Assembly: GCA_019233055.1 (NCBI GenBank)
Contig: JAFAMV010000013.1
Span: 1 to 40,373, forward strand
Direction: 5' to 3'
Length of the DNA stretch: 40,373 nucleotides
Source: Curvibacter sp.
Lineage (GTDB): Bacteria; Pseudomonadota; Gammaproteobacteria; Burkholderiales; Burkholderiaceae_C
Shown piece after piece: positions 49 through 6,350 of this stretch. The notes under the pieces were generated by a model that searched no databases, was not told the origin of the DNA, and saw nothing but the letters and a program-made list of their open reading frames with translations. The translations under genes were made by a program, and so were the position numbers. Positions within the stretch are counted from its first letter, which is position 1. Each line of letters starts with the position of its first letter.

Positions 49-636
49 ATGAACACCCCCCAGATCACCGAAGCCCCGCTGCCCGAAGCCAGCCGCATCC
101 GGCTGGCACTGCCCGGTGCCGATTTCGCCGACTGCTACGTGGCCGCCGACCCGGCGCCCGGCCTGTCACCGATGCAGGCCTGGCTCGACACGGTGGCCTG
201 CACTCCCGCCTGGACCCGCCTGCTCATGGCCTGGCGCAACCGCCTGGTGCGCCTGGTCGGCCTCAAGGACCTGGGAGGCATCGGAGAGCTAGACGCCCGG
301 GCGCGCCGCAAGACCGCGGCGGAGTTCCGGGTCGGCGACCGCGTCGGCATCTTCGACATCCGCCACTTGAGCGAGGACGAAGTGCTGATGGGCCAGGACG
401 ACCGCCACCTCGAGGTGCAGGTCTCTTTGTGCAAGCGCCAACGCCTGGGCGCCGACGGCCGCAACGAGCCGGTCATCGCACTGGGCACGGTGGTGCACAT
501 CCACAACCCCCTGGGCCGGGCCTACATGGGGCTGATCACCCCCTTCCACCGCCTCATCGCGCCGGCCATGCTGCGCGCCGGGGTGCGGGCCATGTCGCGG
601 CCGCAGGCCGACCGGAGCCCGCATGCGCCAGGCTGA
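49..636 (+). CDS. DUF2867 domain protein
   Basis: The 195-residue product matches the pattern of DUF2867 proteins, which occur alone or as C-terminal domains of SDR-type proteins and have no established reaction. The recognisable part is residues 80-180. It has a charged segment (RKTAAEFRVGDRVGIFDIRH), then a DDRHLEVQVSL strand pair, and ends in HNPLGRAYMGLITPFHRLI, typical of this fold. No signal peptide or membrane segment is seen. The start has an AGGA about 7 nt upstream. The last 14 bases overlap the start of the UbiB-like kinase, so the two are probably co-translated. Whether an operon partner lies upstream cannot be seen, since the window begins 48 bp before the start codon. Family call fairly sure, function unknown. 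Confidence 0.75.
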   Translation: MNTPQITEAPLPEASRIRLALPGADFADCYVAADPAPGLSPMQAWLDTVACTPAWTRLLMAWRNRLVRLVGLKDLGGIGELDARARRKTAAEFRVGDRVGIFDIRHLSEDEVLMGQDDRHLEVQVSLCKRQRLGADGRNEPVIALGTVVHIHNPLGRAYMGLITPFHRLIAPAMLRAGVRAMSRPQADRSPHAPG

Positions 637-1993
637 GGCACCGCGCACCGGCGCGCTGGGCCGTGGGGCCATCACCGGGCTGGCCGTGGCGCGGGCCGGC
701 ATCGCCGAACTCGGCCACCGCGTCGGCCTGGGCGCTGGCGACGCGCCGCAGCGCCAGGCCCGCCATGAAGCCGAGATCGGCCGCATCCTCTTCCAGGCCA
801 TGAGCCAGCTGCGCGGCACGGCCCTGAAGGTCTCGCAGATCCTCAGCATGGAAGCCGGCTTCCTGCCCGAGGGGGTGCGCCATGAGCTGGCCCGGGCCTG
901 CCATCAGGTCACGCCCTTGAACCGGGCCTTGGTGGGCCGGGTGTTCCGCCAGTCCTTCGGCCAGGAGCCCGAGGCCCTGTTCGACCGCTTCGAGCCGGCC
1001 GCCTTCGCCGCCGCCAGCCTGGGGCAGGTGCACCGTGCCGAACTGAGGGGCCAGGGCCGGCTGGCGGTGAAGGTGCAGTACCCCGGCATCGCGGCGACCA
1101 TCCCGGCCGACATGCGACTGCTGCGCGGCACGCTCAAGGCGCTCGGCCATGGCGTGCTGTCCCTGCCCGACGCGCCGGTGCTCGACCGCCTGATGGACGA
1201 GATCGAGGCCACGCTGCAGCGCGAGGTCGACTACCTGCAGGAGGCCGAGCAGATGCAATGGTTTGCCGAGCAGGCGACCCTGCCCGGCGTGGTGTGCCCG
1301 CGCCCCCTGCCCTCACACTGCCGCCGCGAGGTCCTGACCCAGCAGCACCTGGACGGATTGCATCTCGATGACTGGTTGCGCGGGCAACCCGATGCTGCAC
1401 GCCGCGATGCCCTGGGGCAGCGCCTGTTCGACTGGTTCATGCAATGCGCCTTCGGCCTCGGACGGCTGCAGGCCGATCTGCACCCGGGCAACTTCCTGTT
1501 CCTGCACGACGGCCGCCTGGGCGTGCTCGACTTCGGCTGCACCCGCACGCTGTCGGACCATTTCCGCACGGCGCTGTGCGCTTCCTGGTCGGCCCAGTTG
1601 CTGCCCCCGGGACCGGCCCGGTCCAGGCGCCTGCTCGACAGCTACCGCCGGCTGGGCCTGATCGCAGCAGACCTGCCCCAGGCCTATTTCGACGACACCC
1701 TCTGGCCCGCCCTCCAGGCGTTTCTGGACTGGCAGAGCGAACCCTTCCGGCTGGCCGACGCCGAAGGCCGTTTCGATTTCGGCCGCAAGAGCGCGCCGGT
1801 GCATCCCGACCGCGCCACCCACCAGCTGCTGATGCAGCACCTGGCCGGCATGCCGCCGGAGATGCCGGCCTTCGAACGCGGCTGGCTGGGCCTCATGCAC
1901 CTGCTGAGCCGCATCGGCGCCCGCGTGGACACCCGCAACCCCTGGGTGGAACGGTCCGCCACCGGCGCCGCCGCCCCTGCAGACCTCAGCTGA
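623..1993 (+). CDS. ABC1/AarF/UbiB-family atypical kinase
   Basis: The 456-residue protein belongs to the UbiB/COQ8 atypical kinase family, whose members support ubiquinone biosynthesis and lipid homeostasis through ATP-dependent activity. Visible landmarks are the family N-terminal motif as KVSQ (residues 69-72, usually KxGQ), the alanine-rich nucleotide loop AAASLGQVHRA (129-139), the ATP-binding lysine in AVKVQYPG (K150), the catalytic DLHPGN (285-290) and the metal-binding DFG (303-305). It lacks the C-terminal hydrophobic helices of canonical UbiB, so it is probably a soluble paralogue rather than ubiB itself. A GGAG lies 5 nt before the ATG. The gene overlaps the DUF2867 gene by 14 nt and the convergent sulfite-oxidase-like gene by 8 nt. 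Confidence 0.85.
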   Translation: MRQAEAPRTGALGRGAITGLAVARAGIAELGHRVGLGAGDAPQRQARHEAEIGRILFQAMSQLRGTALKVSQILSMEAGFLPEGVRHELARACHQVTPLNRALVGRVFRQSFGQEPEALFDRFEPAAFAAASLGQVHRAELRGQGRLAVKVQYPGIAATIPADMRLLRGTLKALGHGVLSLPDAPVLDRLMDEIEATLQREVDYLQEAEQMQWFAEQATLPGVVCPRPLPSHCRREVLTQQHLDGLHLDDWLRGQPDAARRDALGQRLFDWFMQCAFGLGRLQADLHPGNFLFLHDGRLGVLDFGCTRTLSDHFRTALCASWSAQLLPPGPARSRRLLDSYRRLGLIAADLPQAYFDDTLWPALQAFLDWQSEPFRLADAEGRFDFGRKSAPVHPDRATHQLLMQHLAGMPPEMPAFERGWLGLMHLLSRIGARVDTRNPWVERSATGAAAPADLS

Positions 1994-1994
1994 G
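1985..1994. other. Palindrome containing both stops of a convergent gene pair
   Basis: CTCAGCTGAG is a perfect 10-bp palindrome. It contains the UbiB-like stop TGA (1991-1993) and, on the other strand, the stop of the sulfite-oxidase-like gene (TCA, 1986-1988). The two coding regions therefore overlap tail to tail by 8 bp with no intergenic space for a separate terminator. Confidence 0.8.
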
Positions 1995-3185
1995 CTGCAC
2001 CGTCACCGCGTGGTCCAGCCAGCTGTTGTTGTTGTAGCCGCCCGCGTTCTCGACACGCTCGCGCGGCTGTTCGCGCCCTGAGGCATCGATGACGCGCGAG
2101 ACCAGGGTGTGGCGGCCCGCCGGCAGGGTCACGTTCAAGGCGAACTTCCGCCAGGCGAAGCGTCCCAGATCCGGCCCCACCAGCTCGGCCTCCTGCCACT
2201 GCCGCCCGCCATCGACCGAGACCTCGACCCGGCTCACGGCCTGGGTTCCGCCGAAGGCCACGCCCTGCACCTGCAGACGGCCCGAAGGGAGCTTGCCGCG
2301 CTCGGTCAGCGGCGCATGGATCCAGGATTTCAAGGGCATCTCCCAGACCGGAGGCTGGCTCGGGTCCGGCCTGGCGCCCGGCGGCGCGAGGCGGAAATCC
2401 CGCGCCATGACACGGGCCTGGGATTCGGCCGCCGTGAAGGCCAGGCGGCGCAGGTATTTGACGTTGTTGACGCCCTGGTAGCCCGGCACGATGAGGCGCA
2501 GCGGGCCGCCATGGGCCAGGGGCAACGGCTGCCCGTTGAGTTCCCAGACCAGCAGCGCGTCTTCCAGGGTCGCCAGCGGCACCGATCGCTCGAACACCAC
2601 CGTCAGGGGATCGACCCCCTCGGGCAGGACCTCGCCGCCGGTGGCGGTGATGTAGTGGCTGCCGCCCTGCAGCCCGCCCAGGGCCTCGACCACGCGGCGA
2701 AGCGGCACCCCGCCCCAGACCACGCAGCCGGCGCCACCGACGGTCCAGGGAATGCCGGCGGGTTTGCCGGGAAAGAAGGCGCGGCCGTTGCCGGCCGCCT
2801 GCAGCACCGTGGCCAGCGTCACCTGGCCCAGGCCCTTGAGTTCCGACAGACTCAATGCGCGCGGCTTCTTCACCCCTTCGACCTGGAGCGCCCAGGCCTC
2901 GGGCCGGGCGACGATGGCCGCCGCCGGCGGCGCCAGCAGGTTGTGCACATAGAGCTGATCGGCCGGCGTGACGAGCGAGGTGCCGAGCACGGCGCGCCGG
3001 GTCTCCACCGCCGTCGCATTGAACACCTTCATGGACTCGCCGTCCTTCCACTCGAGGTAGGTCGGCGGCGGGTGCCCTTCGGCGCGTACCGGACGGCACC
3101 AACTGGCCAGACCGGCGCCGGCCAGGGCCGCCACCGAGGCCGTCAACATCTGGCGGCGGGGCATTTCGAGGAAGGAGGAGGACAT
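1986..3185 (-). CDS. Sulfite-oxidase-like molybdopterin protein, Mo-ligand Cys replaced by Ala
   Basis: The 399-residue product is in the sulfite oxidase/SorA/SoxC family: an N-terminal molybdopterin domain (about 80-265) followed by a Mo-co dimerisation domain (about 280-399). The N-terminus MPRRQMLTASVAALAGAGLA is a twin-arginine signal, so export to the periplasm as a folded protein is expected. Family blocks include GVPLRRVVEALGG, the ERSVPLA segment, LPLAHGGPLRLIVPGYQGVN and SVDGGRQWQEAEL. The motif that normally reads Q-C-S/A-G-N holds the Mo-coordinating cysteine. Here it is LQAAGNGR with Ala at position 130 (codon GCG, 2796-2798). The only cysteine of the mature part is C154. No cytochrome partner (SorB-like) is adjacent. 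It may be inactive, repurposed, or use a different ligand. Start ATG 3185 was chosen because it puts the RR motif near the N-terminus; the longer frame runs antisense to tgt. Confidence 0.85.
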   Translation of the reverse strand: MSSSFLEMPRRQMLTASVAALAGAGLASWCRPVRAEGHPPPTYLEWKDGESMKVFNATAVETRRAVLGTSLVTPADQLYVHNLLAPPAAAIVARPEAWALQVEGVKKPRALSLSELKGLGQVTLATVLQAAGNGRAFFPGKPAGIPWTVGGAGCVVWGGVPLRRVVEALGGLQGGSHYITATGGEVLPEGVDPLTVVFERSVPLATLEDALLVWELNGQPLPLAHGGPLRLIVPGYQGVNNVKYLRRLAFTAAESQARVMARDFRLAPPGARPDPSQPPVWEMPLKSWIHAPLTERGKLPSGRLQVQGVAFGGTQAVSRVEVSVDGGRQWQEAELVGPDLGRFAWRKFALNVTLPAGRHTLVSRVIDASGREQPRERVENAGGYNNNSWLDHAVTVQLS

Positions 3186-3236
3186 GGGACTGGTATGGCG
3201 GGCAAAGACATCGTCGGACGCCGATTGTGCCCTTGA

Positions 3237-4448
<1,212 letters not shown>

Positions 4449-4574
4449 TCCCCTCAGAGACTGTTCATGGTCTTCCGGGGTGGCAAAACAACTGCTTACC
4501 CCGCTTTCAGATCGTCAGACGCTTTCCGCCCGGGCCTCCTATGCTGCTCAGCCCGCAGCCACCTGGAGCCCACC

Positions 4575-5384
4575 GTGAACCCCGAAGCCGTCTGGCAATT
4601 CATCACCCACCAAGGTCTGGACCTGATGCTCAAGGTCCTGGGCGCCCTGGCCACCTGGGTCTGCGGGCGCTGGCTGATCGGCCATGCCACCCGGCTGATG
4701 CACCCGCTGCTGCTGTTGCGGGGCCAGATGGACGCCACACTGGCGCAGTACCTGGCCTCGATCGTCAAAGGCCTGCTGCATGTGCTGCTGGTGTTGCTGA
4801 TCCTGGACATCTTCGGCATCAGCACCACCTCGCTGGCCGCCCTGCTGGCCGGCGCCGGCCTGGCACTGGGGGCCGCCTGGGGCGGACTCCTGAGCCATTT
4901 CGCGGCCGGACTCTTCCTGCAGGTGATGCGGCCTTACCGCGTCGGCGACCATGTCACGCTGGCGGGCATCACCGGGCGGGTGAACGAACTGGGCCTGGTC
5001 AACACCCAGTTGATCAGCAGCGACCATGTCCTGACCCTGGTCGGCAACAACAAGGTGTTCTCCGAGGTGATCCGCAACTACAGCGCGCTGCCCGCACGCC
5101 GGGTGGAATGCCAGGTCCGGCTGGCGCACGGCGTGGACGCCGAACAGGCCATGGCGCGGATCCGTGCTGCGCTGCAGGCCGTGCCCCATGTGTGCATCGC
5201 GCCGCCGCCCGAGATCGGCATCGCCGAGTTCAGCGCCGAAGGCCCGGTGCTGAATGTGCGCCCCTACACCCACACCGACCACTACTGGCAGGTGTTCTAC
5301 GACACCCACCGCATGCTGCAGGCCGAGCTGCGCGAGGCCGGCTACCCGGTGCCGGAAAAGCCCATCCGCGTGCGGCAGATCTGA
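4575..5384 (+). CDS. MscS-type small mechanosensitive channel (first of a tandem pair)
   Basis: The 269-residue inner-membrane protein has three N-terminal hydrophobic helices (about 15-35, 65-85 and 90-113). The third is the glycine/alanine-rich pore helix LAALLAGAGLALGAAWGG typical of MscS, followed by the beta domain (RPYRVGDHVTLAGITGRV) and a cytoplasmic alpha/beta domain. Such channels release osmolytes on hypo-osmotic shock. GTG 4575 was chosen because a GGAG lies 6 nt upstream and the N-terminus then aligns exactly with the paralogue at 5541-6350. The two proteins have the same length and align without gaps, with about half the positions identical by eye. A TATGCT at 4540-4545 is a possible -10. 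Confidence 0.9.
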   Translation: MNPEAVWQFITHQGLDLMLKVLGALATWVCGRWLIGHATRLMHPLLLLRGQMDATLAQYLASIVKGLLHVLLVLLILDIFGISTTSLAALLAGAGLALGAAWGGLLSHFAAGLFLQVMRPYRVGDHVTLAGITGRVNELGLVNTQLISSDHVLTLVGNNKVFSEVIRNYSALPARRVECQVRLAHGVDAEQAMARIRAALQAVPHVCIAPPPEIGIAEFSAEGPVLNVRPYTHTDHYWQVFYDTHRMLQAELREAGYPVPEKPIRVRQI

Positions 5385-5406
5385 GCGCCTCACCACGGCC
5401 CAGGCC

Positions 5407-5422
5407 TGGCGGCGCGCCGCCA
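5407..5422. other. 16-bp perfect palindrome between the two mscS-type genes
   Basis: TGGCGGCGCGCCGCCA reads the same on both strands and could fold as a 6-bp stem with a CGCG loop. It starts 22 bp after the first channel's stop codon. No T tract follows, so it may be an attenuator or a protein site rather than a classical terminator. Confidence 0.5.
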
Positions 5423-5451
5423 TCCCACCGCACGACGGCCCTGCGAAGCCC

Positions 5452-5481
5452 ACTTTTTGCACATTCACGGACTTTTTGCAC
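5452..5481 (+). repeat. Direct repeat ACTTTTTGCAC, two copies 19 bp apart
   Basis: The 11-mer occurs at 5452-5462 and 5471-5481 in the spacer before the second channel gene. Start-to-start spacing is 19 bp, nearly two helical turns. The copies lie 60-90 bp upstream of ATG 5541, where an activator or operator site would be expected. A possible -10, TAAGCT, is at 5515-5520. I recognise no known regulator site, and the spacing does not fit a sigma-54 promoter. Confidence 0.45.
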
Positions 5482-5540
5482 GGTGCGGTCACGCCACGGA
5501 CACGCTCCCAAACGTAAGCTGCGCGGCGGAGGTGAACCCC

Positions 5541-6350
5541 ATGAACACTGAAGTCATCTGGAATTTCCTGAGCACACAGGGCGCCGATTTCGGCCTCAAG
5601 CTGGTGGGCGCGATTGCCGCCTGGATCGTCGGACGCTGGCTGATCAGCCTGTCGGTGCGGCTGATGGGGTCGGTGCTGGCCCGCGGCCAGAAGATCGACG
5701 CCACGCTGACCGAGTACCTGAAATCGATCGTGTCGGTGCTGCTCAACATCGTGCTGGCGCTGGCCCTGCTCGGGATCTTCGGCGTCAACACCGCGTCCTT
5801 CGCCGCCCTGCTGGCCGGCGCAGGCCTGGCCATCGGCACCGCCTGGGGCGGGCTGTTGACCCATTTCGCCGCTGGCGTCTTCCTGCAGGTGCTGCGCCCG
5901 TACAAGGTGGGCGACTTCGTCAGTGCCGGCGGCGTGACCGGCACGGTCAAGGAGCTGGGCCTGTTCTCCACCACCTTCGTCACGCCCGACAACGTGATCA
6001 CCATGGTGGGCAACAACAAGGTGTTCGCCGACACCATCCAGAACTTCAGCACCCTGCCCTACCGGCGGGTCGACTGCGTGGCCAAGGTGGCCAACGGGGT
6101 GGATGTGCAGGATGCCATCGCGCACCTGCGCCAGGCCGTCGCTGGCGTGGCCAACGTGGCCCGCACGCCGGTGCCGGACATCGAGATCCTGCAGTTCACG
6201 CCCGAAGGCCCGCTGCTGTGCGTGCGACCCTACACCCACACCGACCACTACTGGCAGGTGTATTTCGACACCCACAAGGCCATCGTCACCGCCTTCGGCT
6301 CGGCCGGCTATCCGGTGCCCGAGACGCCGATGGTGCATCGCAGCCTCTGA
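5541..6350 (+). CDS. MscS-type small mechanosensitive channel (second of a tandem pair)
   Basis: This 269-residue paralogue of the preceding channel has the same three-helix plus beta-domain layout. The pore helix is FAALLAGAGLAIGTAWGG, followed by RPYKVGDFVSAGGVTGTV and a C-terminal half that shares VRPYTHTDHYWQV with the first copy. A strong GGAGGTGA ends 5 nt before ATG 5541, which decides the start. The 156-bp spacer and its own repeats suggest separate control of the second gene. Tandem duplication followed by divergence is the simplest history. The two could form separate channels with different thresholds or mixed heptamers; the sequence cannot tell which. Confidence 0.9.
   Translation: MNTEVIWNFLSTQGADFGLKLVGAIAAWIVGRWLISLSVRLMGSVLARGQKIDATLTEYLKSIVSVLLNIVLALALLGIFGVNTASFAALLAGAGLAIGTAWGGLLTHFAAGVFLQVLRPYKVGDFVSAGGVTGTVKELGLFSTTFVTPDNVITMVGNNKVFADTIQNFSTLPYRRVDCVAKVANGVDVQDAIAHLRQAVAGVANVARTPVPDIEILQFTPEGPLLCVRPYTHTDHYWQVYFDTHKAIVTAFGSAGYPVPETPMVHRSL

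Follow-up and report, generated by a model that had tools for sequence, protein, structure and literature searches.

The SorT protein of Sinorhizobium meliloti (structures 4pw3 and 4pw9; NCBIfam model NF052247) is the described enzyme that stands closest to the protein reported here. In its structural description, Cys127 is the molybdenum ligand of S. meliloti SorT, and Arg78 provides the dominant electron route from molybdenum to the SorU heme together with a salt bridge to the heme propionate (PMC4760952). According to another source, the Mo-ligating cysteine was invariant across every sulfite oxidase and nitrate reductase sequence known at the time and was mutated in the rat and human enzymes to prove its role, and the R160Q variant of sulfite oxidase has a normal molybdenum content and less than 5% of the activity (PMC10574614). 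Human C207S sulfite oxidase keeps the dithiolene Raman bands and loses the Mo-S(Cys) bands, and serine is a natural Mo ligand in DMSO reductases, as stated in a third (PMC9370002).

The engineered animal variants (human C207S, chicken C185S and C185A) lack the same ligand in the same fold as the protein described below; the change in Curvibacter differs from them in being natural and in being accompanied by the loss of the electron acceptor. Replacing the cysteine by Ser or Ala in sulfite oxidase reportedly abolishes activity, and the introduced serine reportedly does not bind molybdenum. In the chicken C185S and C185A structures a third oxo group is reportedly present and sulfite oxidation absent. 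We take the R160Q site to be the equivalent of SorT Arg78, and from the C207S and R160Q data a protein that is loaded with molybdenum cofactor (Moco) and dead towards sulfite is therefore the natural expectation. No natural sulfite oxidase devoid of the cysteine was reported in the titles and abstract openings of the literature searched.

The window analysed here is a stretch of 40,373 nucleotides from the genome of a Curvibacter sp., in which an initial annotation had pointed to a sulfite-oxidase-like protein with alanine in place of the Mo-ligating cysteine. Our comparative analysis reveals a coordinated loss of the metal ligand, the electron gateway and the cytochrome partner, in a family whose ligand is otherwise fixed as far as sampled.

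The SorT homologue and its active site

The sorT homologue without the Mo-ligating cysteine occupies positions 1986..3185 of the reverse strand and encodes 399 amino acids with the Tat-type start MSSSFLEMPRRQML, in which PRRQML is followed by a hydrophobic stretch (translation read by eye). The protein matches Pfam families PF00174 (Oxidored_molyb, 8.4e-40) and PF03404 (Mo-co_dimer, 4.5e-14), and its best NCBIfam model is SorT NF052247 with 552.4 bits, below the curated cut-off of 570. The SorA model (182.5 bits) and the SoxC model (152.6 bits, cut-off 420) remained far under their own cut-offs; hence the nearest family is SorT (552 versus 182 bits for SorA) instead of SorA or the chicken enzyme, against which the site had initially been read. 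The closest solved structure is S. meliloti SorT 4pw3, with an alignment covering residues 36-396 and both Pfam domains; it is free of gaps from residue 36 through Ala130, which faces a cysteine that is Cys127 by numbering offset. The C185S mutant 3hbg was also among the structure matches, and 3hbp has the same sequence.

Ala130 lies within VLQAAGNGRAFF of the ORF translation, and its codon GCG (2796..2798, reverse strand, read 2798-2796) stands where the family has the codon of the Mo-ligating cysteine, which confirms the initial reading of this site. In overlapping sets of 60 relatives, 9 genus members, 399 genomes of the family, 399 of the order and 398 of the phylum, the ligand column of 81 distinct SorT sequences holds Cys in 78, Ser in two and Ala solely in the window protein. 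This Cys-to-Ala departure from the family pattern is far beyond chance. Both serine sequences come from same-genus genomes (G002 and G006), which we take to be Curvibacter gracilis ATCC BAA-807 and C. lanceolatus ATCC 14669. A motif scan of GTDB r220 for a non-Cys residue, which covers only V-x-Q-x-x-G-N-G-R-[AG]-[FY], misses Ser (AGY), Gly, Arg and Trp codons at the Cys position and perhaps excluded records near the window's genome, returned 15 stretches; SorT was represented in two of them, those of C. gracilis ATCC BAA-807 and C. lanceolatus ATCC 14669. No close relative bearing the Ala form was found among the genomes searched, and the plasmid search gave 74 matching records, none of them with at least 60% identity.

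The window protein resembles S. meliloti SorT in both Pfam domains and in most invariant residues, but carries Ala for Cys127, His for Arg78 and Phe for Tyr267 and is devoid of SorU. Across 58 Cys-type SorT sequences (57 genomic and that of S. meliloti), 386 columns are well filled and 89 of them never vary; the window protein keeps 80 of the 89 and departs at nine, which in SorT numbering are H52, R78, N80, C127, S128, A154, V201, I262 and Y267. The Tat-type signal is present as initially described, whereas the domain is less intact than had been thought, and the cysteine is not the only residue lost. Among the replacements, all on the reverse strand, are His81 for Arg78 (2943..2945), the active-site arginine of the electron path and of the salt bridge with the SorU heme, Leu83 for Asn80 (2937..2939), Ala131 for Ser128 (2793..2795) and Phe264 for Tyr267 (2394..2396). 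We assume Tyr267 to be the active-site tyrosine, the counterpart of SorA Tyr236, and Ser128 and Tyr267 are presumably active-site or ligand-neighbouring positions, as judged partly from sequence neighbourhood. The R78 column holds arginine in 80 of the 81 SorT sequences, and in two other solved SorT chains aligned with 4pw3 it holds Lys (5k3x) and Gln (5wa0). The arginines of the GNGR and AWR motifs (R135 and R346 of the window protein) are kept in all 81. Fisher tests on the active-site residues gave p-values of 5.9e-5 or 0.007, with residue sets that were picked post hoc. An AlphaFold model of the window protein, built from a three-row alignment, had a mean pLDDT of 37.8.

The two serine-type proteins likewise retain 80 of the 89 invariant columns each. 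They are like the window protein in having no Mo-ligand cysteine, in the replacement of Ser128 by Ala, in the absence of SorU beside the gene and in belonging to the same clade; they differ from it in having Ser at the ligand site, in keeping Arg78 and Tyr267, both lost in the window protein, and in the MarR and FIST genes that still adjoin sorT. The states Ala131, Ala59 and Pro279 (window numbering) are common to all three proteins.

Cys154 (2724..2726, reverse strand) had been proposed as a substitute ligand. This candidate was rejected, since cysteine is present at its column in 59 of 60 aligned SorT rows, while 57 of the 60 also possess the ligand cysteine, and S. meliloti SorT has it as well; a residue that relatives carry beside the real ligand is not a replacement for it. 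The remaining cysteine of the window protein, Cys30, is located inside the signal peptide. The alignment with homologues therefore gives Cys in SorT and Ala in the window protein at the ligand column, with no other cysteine taking its place.

The SorU partner and the cofactor

A CxxCH...GP cytochrome motif was present within 900 bases downstream and on the same strand in 75 of 78 Cys-type sorT genes; two of the other three run to the end of a contig, and the third (L163, genome G1140) is without the motif. When only genes with 500 or more flanking bases are scored, the SorU-type motif directly follows 75 of 76 Cys-type genes and none of the three Cys-less ones (Fisher p 5e-5, 79 genes, kinship ignored). 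L163 is the sole scorable Cys-type SorT with no detectable downstream SorU. When SorU of the same-genus genome G005 was used as a query (E 0.001), it recovered G005, G003, G021 and G022, gave a single weak match in G002 (35% identity, 1.4e-4) and zero matches in the window genome, G006 and G007, and no c-type cytochrome gene was seen beside the Ala or Ser form of sorT. Downstream of the window sorT the place expected for SorU is occupied by an ABC1/UbiB-type kinase homologue (623..1993, forward strand), which is convergent with sorT and overlaps its stop by eight bases. Since SorU and Arg78 are both gone, the electron route is also absent. With ligand, gateway arginine and cytochrome partner all missing, the loss of sulfite oxidation proposed in the initial annotation gains support as an inference.

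As to the cofactor itself, moaA was over the cut-off in all five genomes searched, and Moco should therefore be available.

Gene order and rearrangement of the locus

The gene names tgt, ABC1/UbiB, MarR, FIST, recG, queA, phasin-like, MFS-acyltransferase, XRE and MscS used here are our own provisional labels for the sequences. Divergently from the window sorT lies tgt (queuine tRNA-ribosyltransferase; 3276..4448, forward strand), with counterparts that are 90-97% identical in 8/8 same-genus genomes. The 90-bp intergenic region between the two genes (3186..3275) contains a rearrangement breakpoint, as revealed by synteny. G005 shows the order phasin-like, FIST, MarR (reverse strand), Cys-type sorT, sorU and MFS-acyltransferase, and G006 and G002 have the same order, but with an opposite-strand XRE-type gene in the position of sorU. 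In both serine-type genomes this XRE-type gene (L059, 7121-7876) is convergent with sorT and overlaps its end.

FIST and MarR of the window genome are found beside queA and recG on another contig, and sorT adjoins tgt. The genes recG, queA and tgt are contiguous in G005, G007, G001 and G004, and three genes separate queA from tgt in G002 and G006. The queA/tgt and MarR/sorT breakpoints have thus been exchanged in the window genome, and by its position the window gene accordingly descends from the genus's own sorT. We considered whether it might instead be a separate copy, mobile or paralogous, and dropped this idea, as the recG-queA/MarR-FIST and sorT/tgt junctions show rearrangement. The counterpart of the sorT-tgt junction, where queA abuts MarR, is located at 4276-5891 of locus L133 (C28:1-14000) of the window genome.

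The rearrangement may have removed sorT's own promoter. No promoter-like site was detected at positions 1800-3500 of the window, where none was expected by chance; the scan says little, because the promoter of tgt was not detected either. Beyond tgt the window carries two MscS-type channel homologues (4467-5384 and 5457-6350). Both are present in the same order in G002 and G006, whereas a single copy was detected next to tgt in each of G005 and G007.

Phylogeny and selection

In the SorT gene tree the three Cys-less proteins group together (94/88) next to G005 (99/96), but they sit on long branches (0.75 and 0.84), and the software flagged a meeting of long branches at this point. When the two key columns were masked (24 rows), support for the group dropped to 70/14; when the serine pair was omitted, the window row was left unplaced and did not join G005; when the window row was omitted, the serine pair grouped with G005 at 100/99. 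Hence, the gene tree by itself was not accepted as an argument for a single origin, given the masked support and the instability on omission of long rows, and the argument was rested on a five-protein tree, the locus and the shared states. The five-protein tree of seven genomes joins the window genome with G002 and G006 (98/97), with G005 and G007 as the sister group (99/98); in this data set one protein is absent in G001 and G004, the FIST protein of G004 is represented by a piece of 60 residues, and G002 and G006 have a shortened recG. The ligand codons are TGC or TGT for Cys, TCG for Ser and GCG for the window Ala. As suggested by these sequence comparisons, the cysteine was likely lost once, followed by a change from Ser to Ala.

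The serine pair has accumulated 7 nonsynonymous and 22 synonymous changes over 376 codons (dN/dS 0.108), which departs from neutrality with a binomial P of 3e-8, or 8e-6 under a laxer expectation. The pair has therefore diverged under purifying selection, and this selection postdates the cysteine loss unless the two lost the cysteine independently. For the mature part its dN/dS is 0.125, compared with 0.042-0.134 for the mature part of ten Cys-type pairs (dS 0.05-0.25, not mutually independent); over 400 codons including the signal peptide the value of 0.163 exceeds that Cys-type range, which was itself computed without the signal peptide. The earlier proposal that the window protein is still under selection thus gains direct support only in the serine-type sister lineage and indirect support for the window copy, through its open frame and 80 of 89 retained sites. 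Deeper comparisons gave median dN/dS values of 0.459 for the window versus Cys-type proteins (67 pairs), 0.543 for the Ser versus Cys-type proteins (68 pairs) and 0.339 among Cys-type proteins (1614 pairs), an elevation that fits relaxation as well as changed function. In a neutral simulation of the 399-codon frame, with substitutions and no indels, the probability of finding no stop was 0.29, 0.024 and 0.0095 at 0.05, 0.2 and 0.3 changes per site, respectively; because of these values, the intact frame is improbable under neutrality only if the cysteine loss is old.

Possible fates of the protein

We favour, with moderate confidence, the view that the window protein is a former sulfite dehydrogenase which has been retained as an exported pseudoenzyme and probably binds Moco. 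As in a pseudoenzyme, catalytic residues have been lost within an intact protein. The genus's own sorT would once have encoded an active sulfite dehydrogenase paired with SorU. In the common ancestor of the window genome and C. gracilis/C. lanceolatus, SorU would have been lost and the Mo-ligating cysteine replaced, by Ser first and then, in the window lineage, probably by Ala through the single-base change TCG to GCG. The protein should still fold, leave the cytoplasm by Tat and hold Moco via the dithiolene and the conserved pocket. By analogy with the engineered animal cysteine variants an oxo group may sit in place of the thiolate, and no sulfite turnover would therefore be expected. In the window genome, rearrangement cut sorT off from the divergent MarR gene and set it beside tgt, and the gateway arginine and the tyrosine were also lost in this lineage, in any order relative to the rearrangement. 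The constraint described above suggests that the protein persists in the periplasm as a pseudoenzyme that binds Moco or another ligand. A bolder reading, somewhat less likely than not, is that this lineage has acquired an exported Moco protein with a new selected role, acting either as a periplasmic pseudoenzyme that binds oxyanions or Moco, or as a Mo centre in which an oxygen ligand supports new chemistry.

The main rival to the pseudoenzyme reading is slow decay of the window copy, according to which sorT became useless after the loss of SorU, the active-site residues went first, the regulator was cut off and the open frame is residual. We regard such decay as rather unlikely, in spite of several observations that agree with it: the raised dN/dS in deep comparisons, the long window branch (0.75), active-site losses beyond those of the serine pair, the breakpoint directly upstream of sorT and, as a weak point, the absence of a promoter-like match. 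The same-genus genome G007, moreover, has neither sorT (zero matches at E 0.001) nor sorU. On the other hand, all 399 codons of the frame are open, a state that neutral drift would leave with a probability of 0.29 at 0.05 changes per site and 0.0095 at 0.3, 80 of the 89 invariant residues are retained, and purifying selection acts on the serine-type sister lineage.

The protein might instead be a functional Mo enzyme of changed chemistry, in which the thiolate is replaced by Ser or, for the Ala form, by an oxo group, water or another side chain, and both substrate and electron partner have changed; we consider this improbable. This reading agrees with the constraint on the mature serine form, which lies inside the range of Cys-type SorT, and with the retention of Arg78 and Tyr267 in the serine pair; serine as a natural Mo ligand has a precedent in DMSO reductases (PMC9370002). 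The window form, in contrast, is without Arg78 and Tyr267, and no c-type cytochrome gene was seen beside either form. The engineered Cys-to-Ser and Cys-to-Ala enzymes speak against it too, being reportedly inactive and leaving serine unbound to molybdenum.

That the protein is still a sulfite dehydrogenase, with another ligand and another electron acceptor, is very improbable: its domains and most conserved residues are present, but a replacement cysteine is absent (Cys154 is shared across the family, and Cys30 belongs to the signal peptide), the gateway Arg78 is lost and SorU is missing. A sequencing or assembly artefact is the least credible explanation, for although the assembly is a draft of 264 contigs, GCG differs from the usual TGC at all three bases, which makes a base-calling slip unlikely, a residue other than Cys occupies this site in two other assemblies, and the exchanged junctions lie on two separate contigs and are internal to each. 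A frame or base error was judged unlikely on the first two of these grounds. The cysteine loss is real and lineage-wide, and an artefact is very probably not its cause.

Curvibacter thus offers a natural version of the laboratory experiment, in which a single site of one genus varies between Cys, Ser and Ala and the product is kept. G005 (Cys, with SorU), G002 and G006 (Ser) and the window genome (Ala) constitute a compact comparison system, in which one can ask whether Moco is taken up in vivo without the thiolate, what purpose such a protein serves and by which sequence of steps an electron-transfer pair comes to be broken up. If the pseudoenzyme reading is true, a natural sulfite oxidase lineage gave up both the Mo-cysteine and the electron acceptor and gained a new selected role.

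The window protein also belongs to the same superfamily as SoxC of the SoxCD sulfane dehydrogenase, and the SoxC-like gene of the window genome keeps the cysteine and is 34% identical to the window protein over 283 residues. SoxB, taken as a marker of alternative sulfur oxidation, was over the cut-off in 0/5 genomes, but also in 0/14 control genomes, and the sensitivity of that search is for this reason not established. At locus L141 (contig C20) of the window genome, the gene that we label SoxC-like (3653-4909) is followed by a c-type cytochrome gene (4896-5468).
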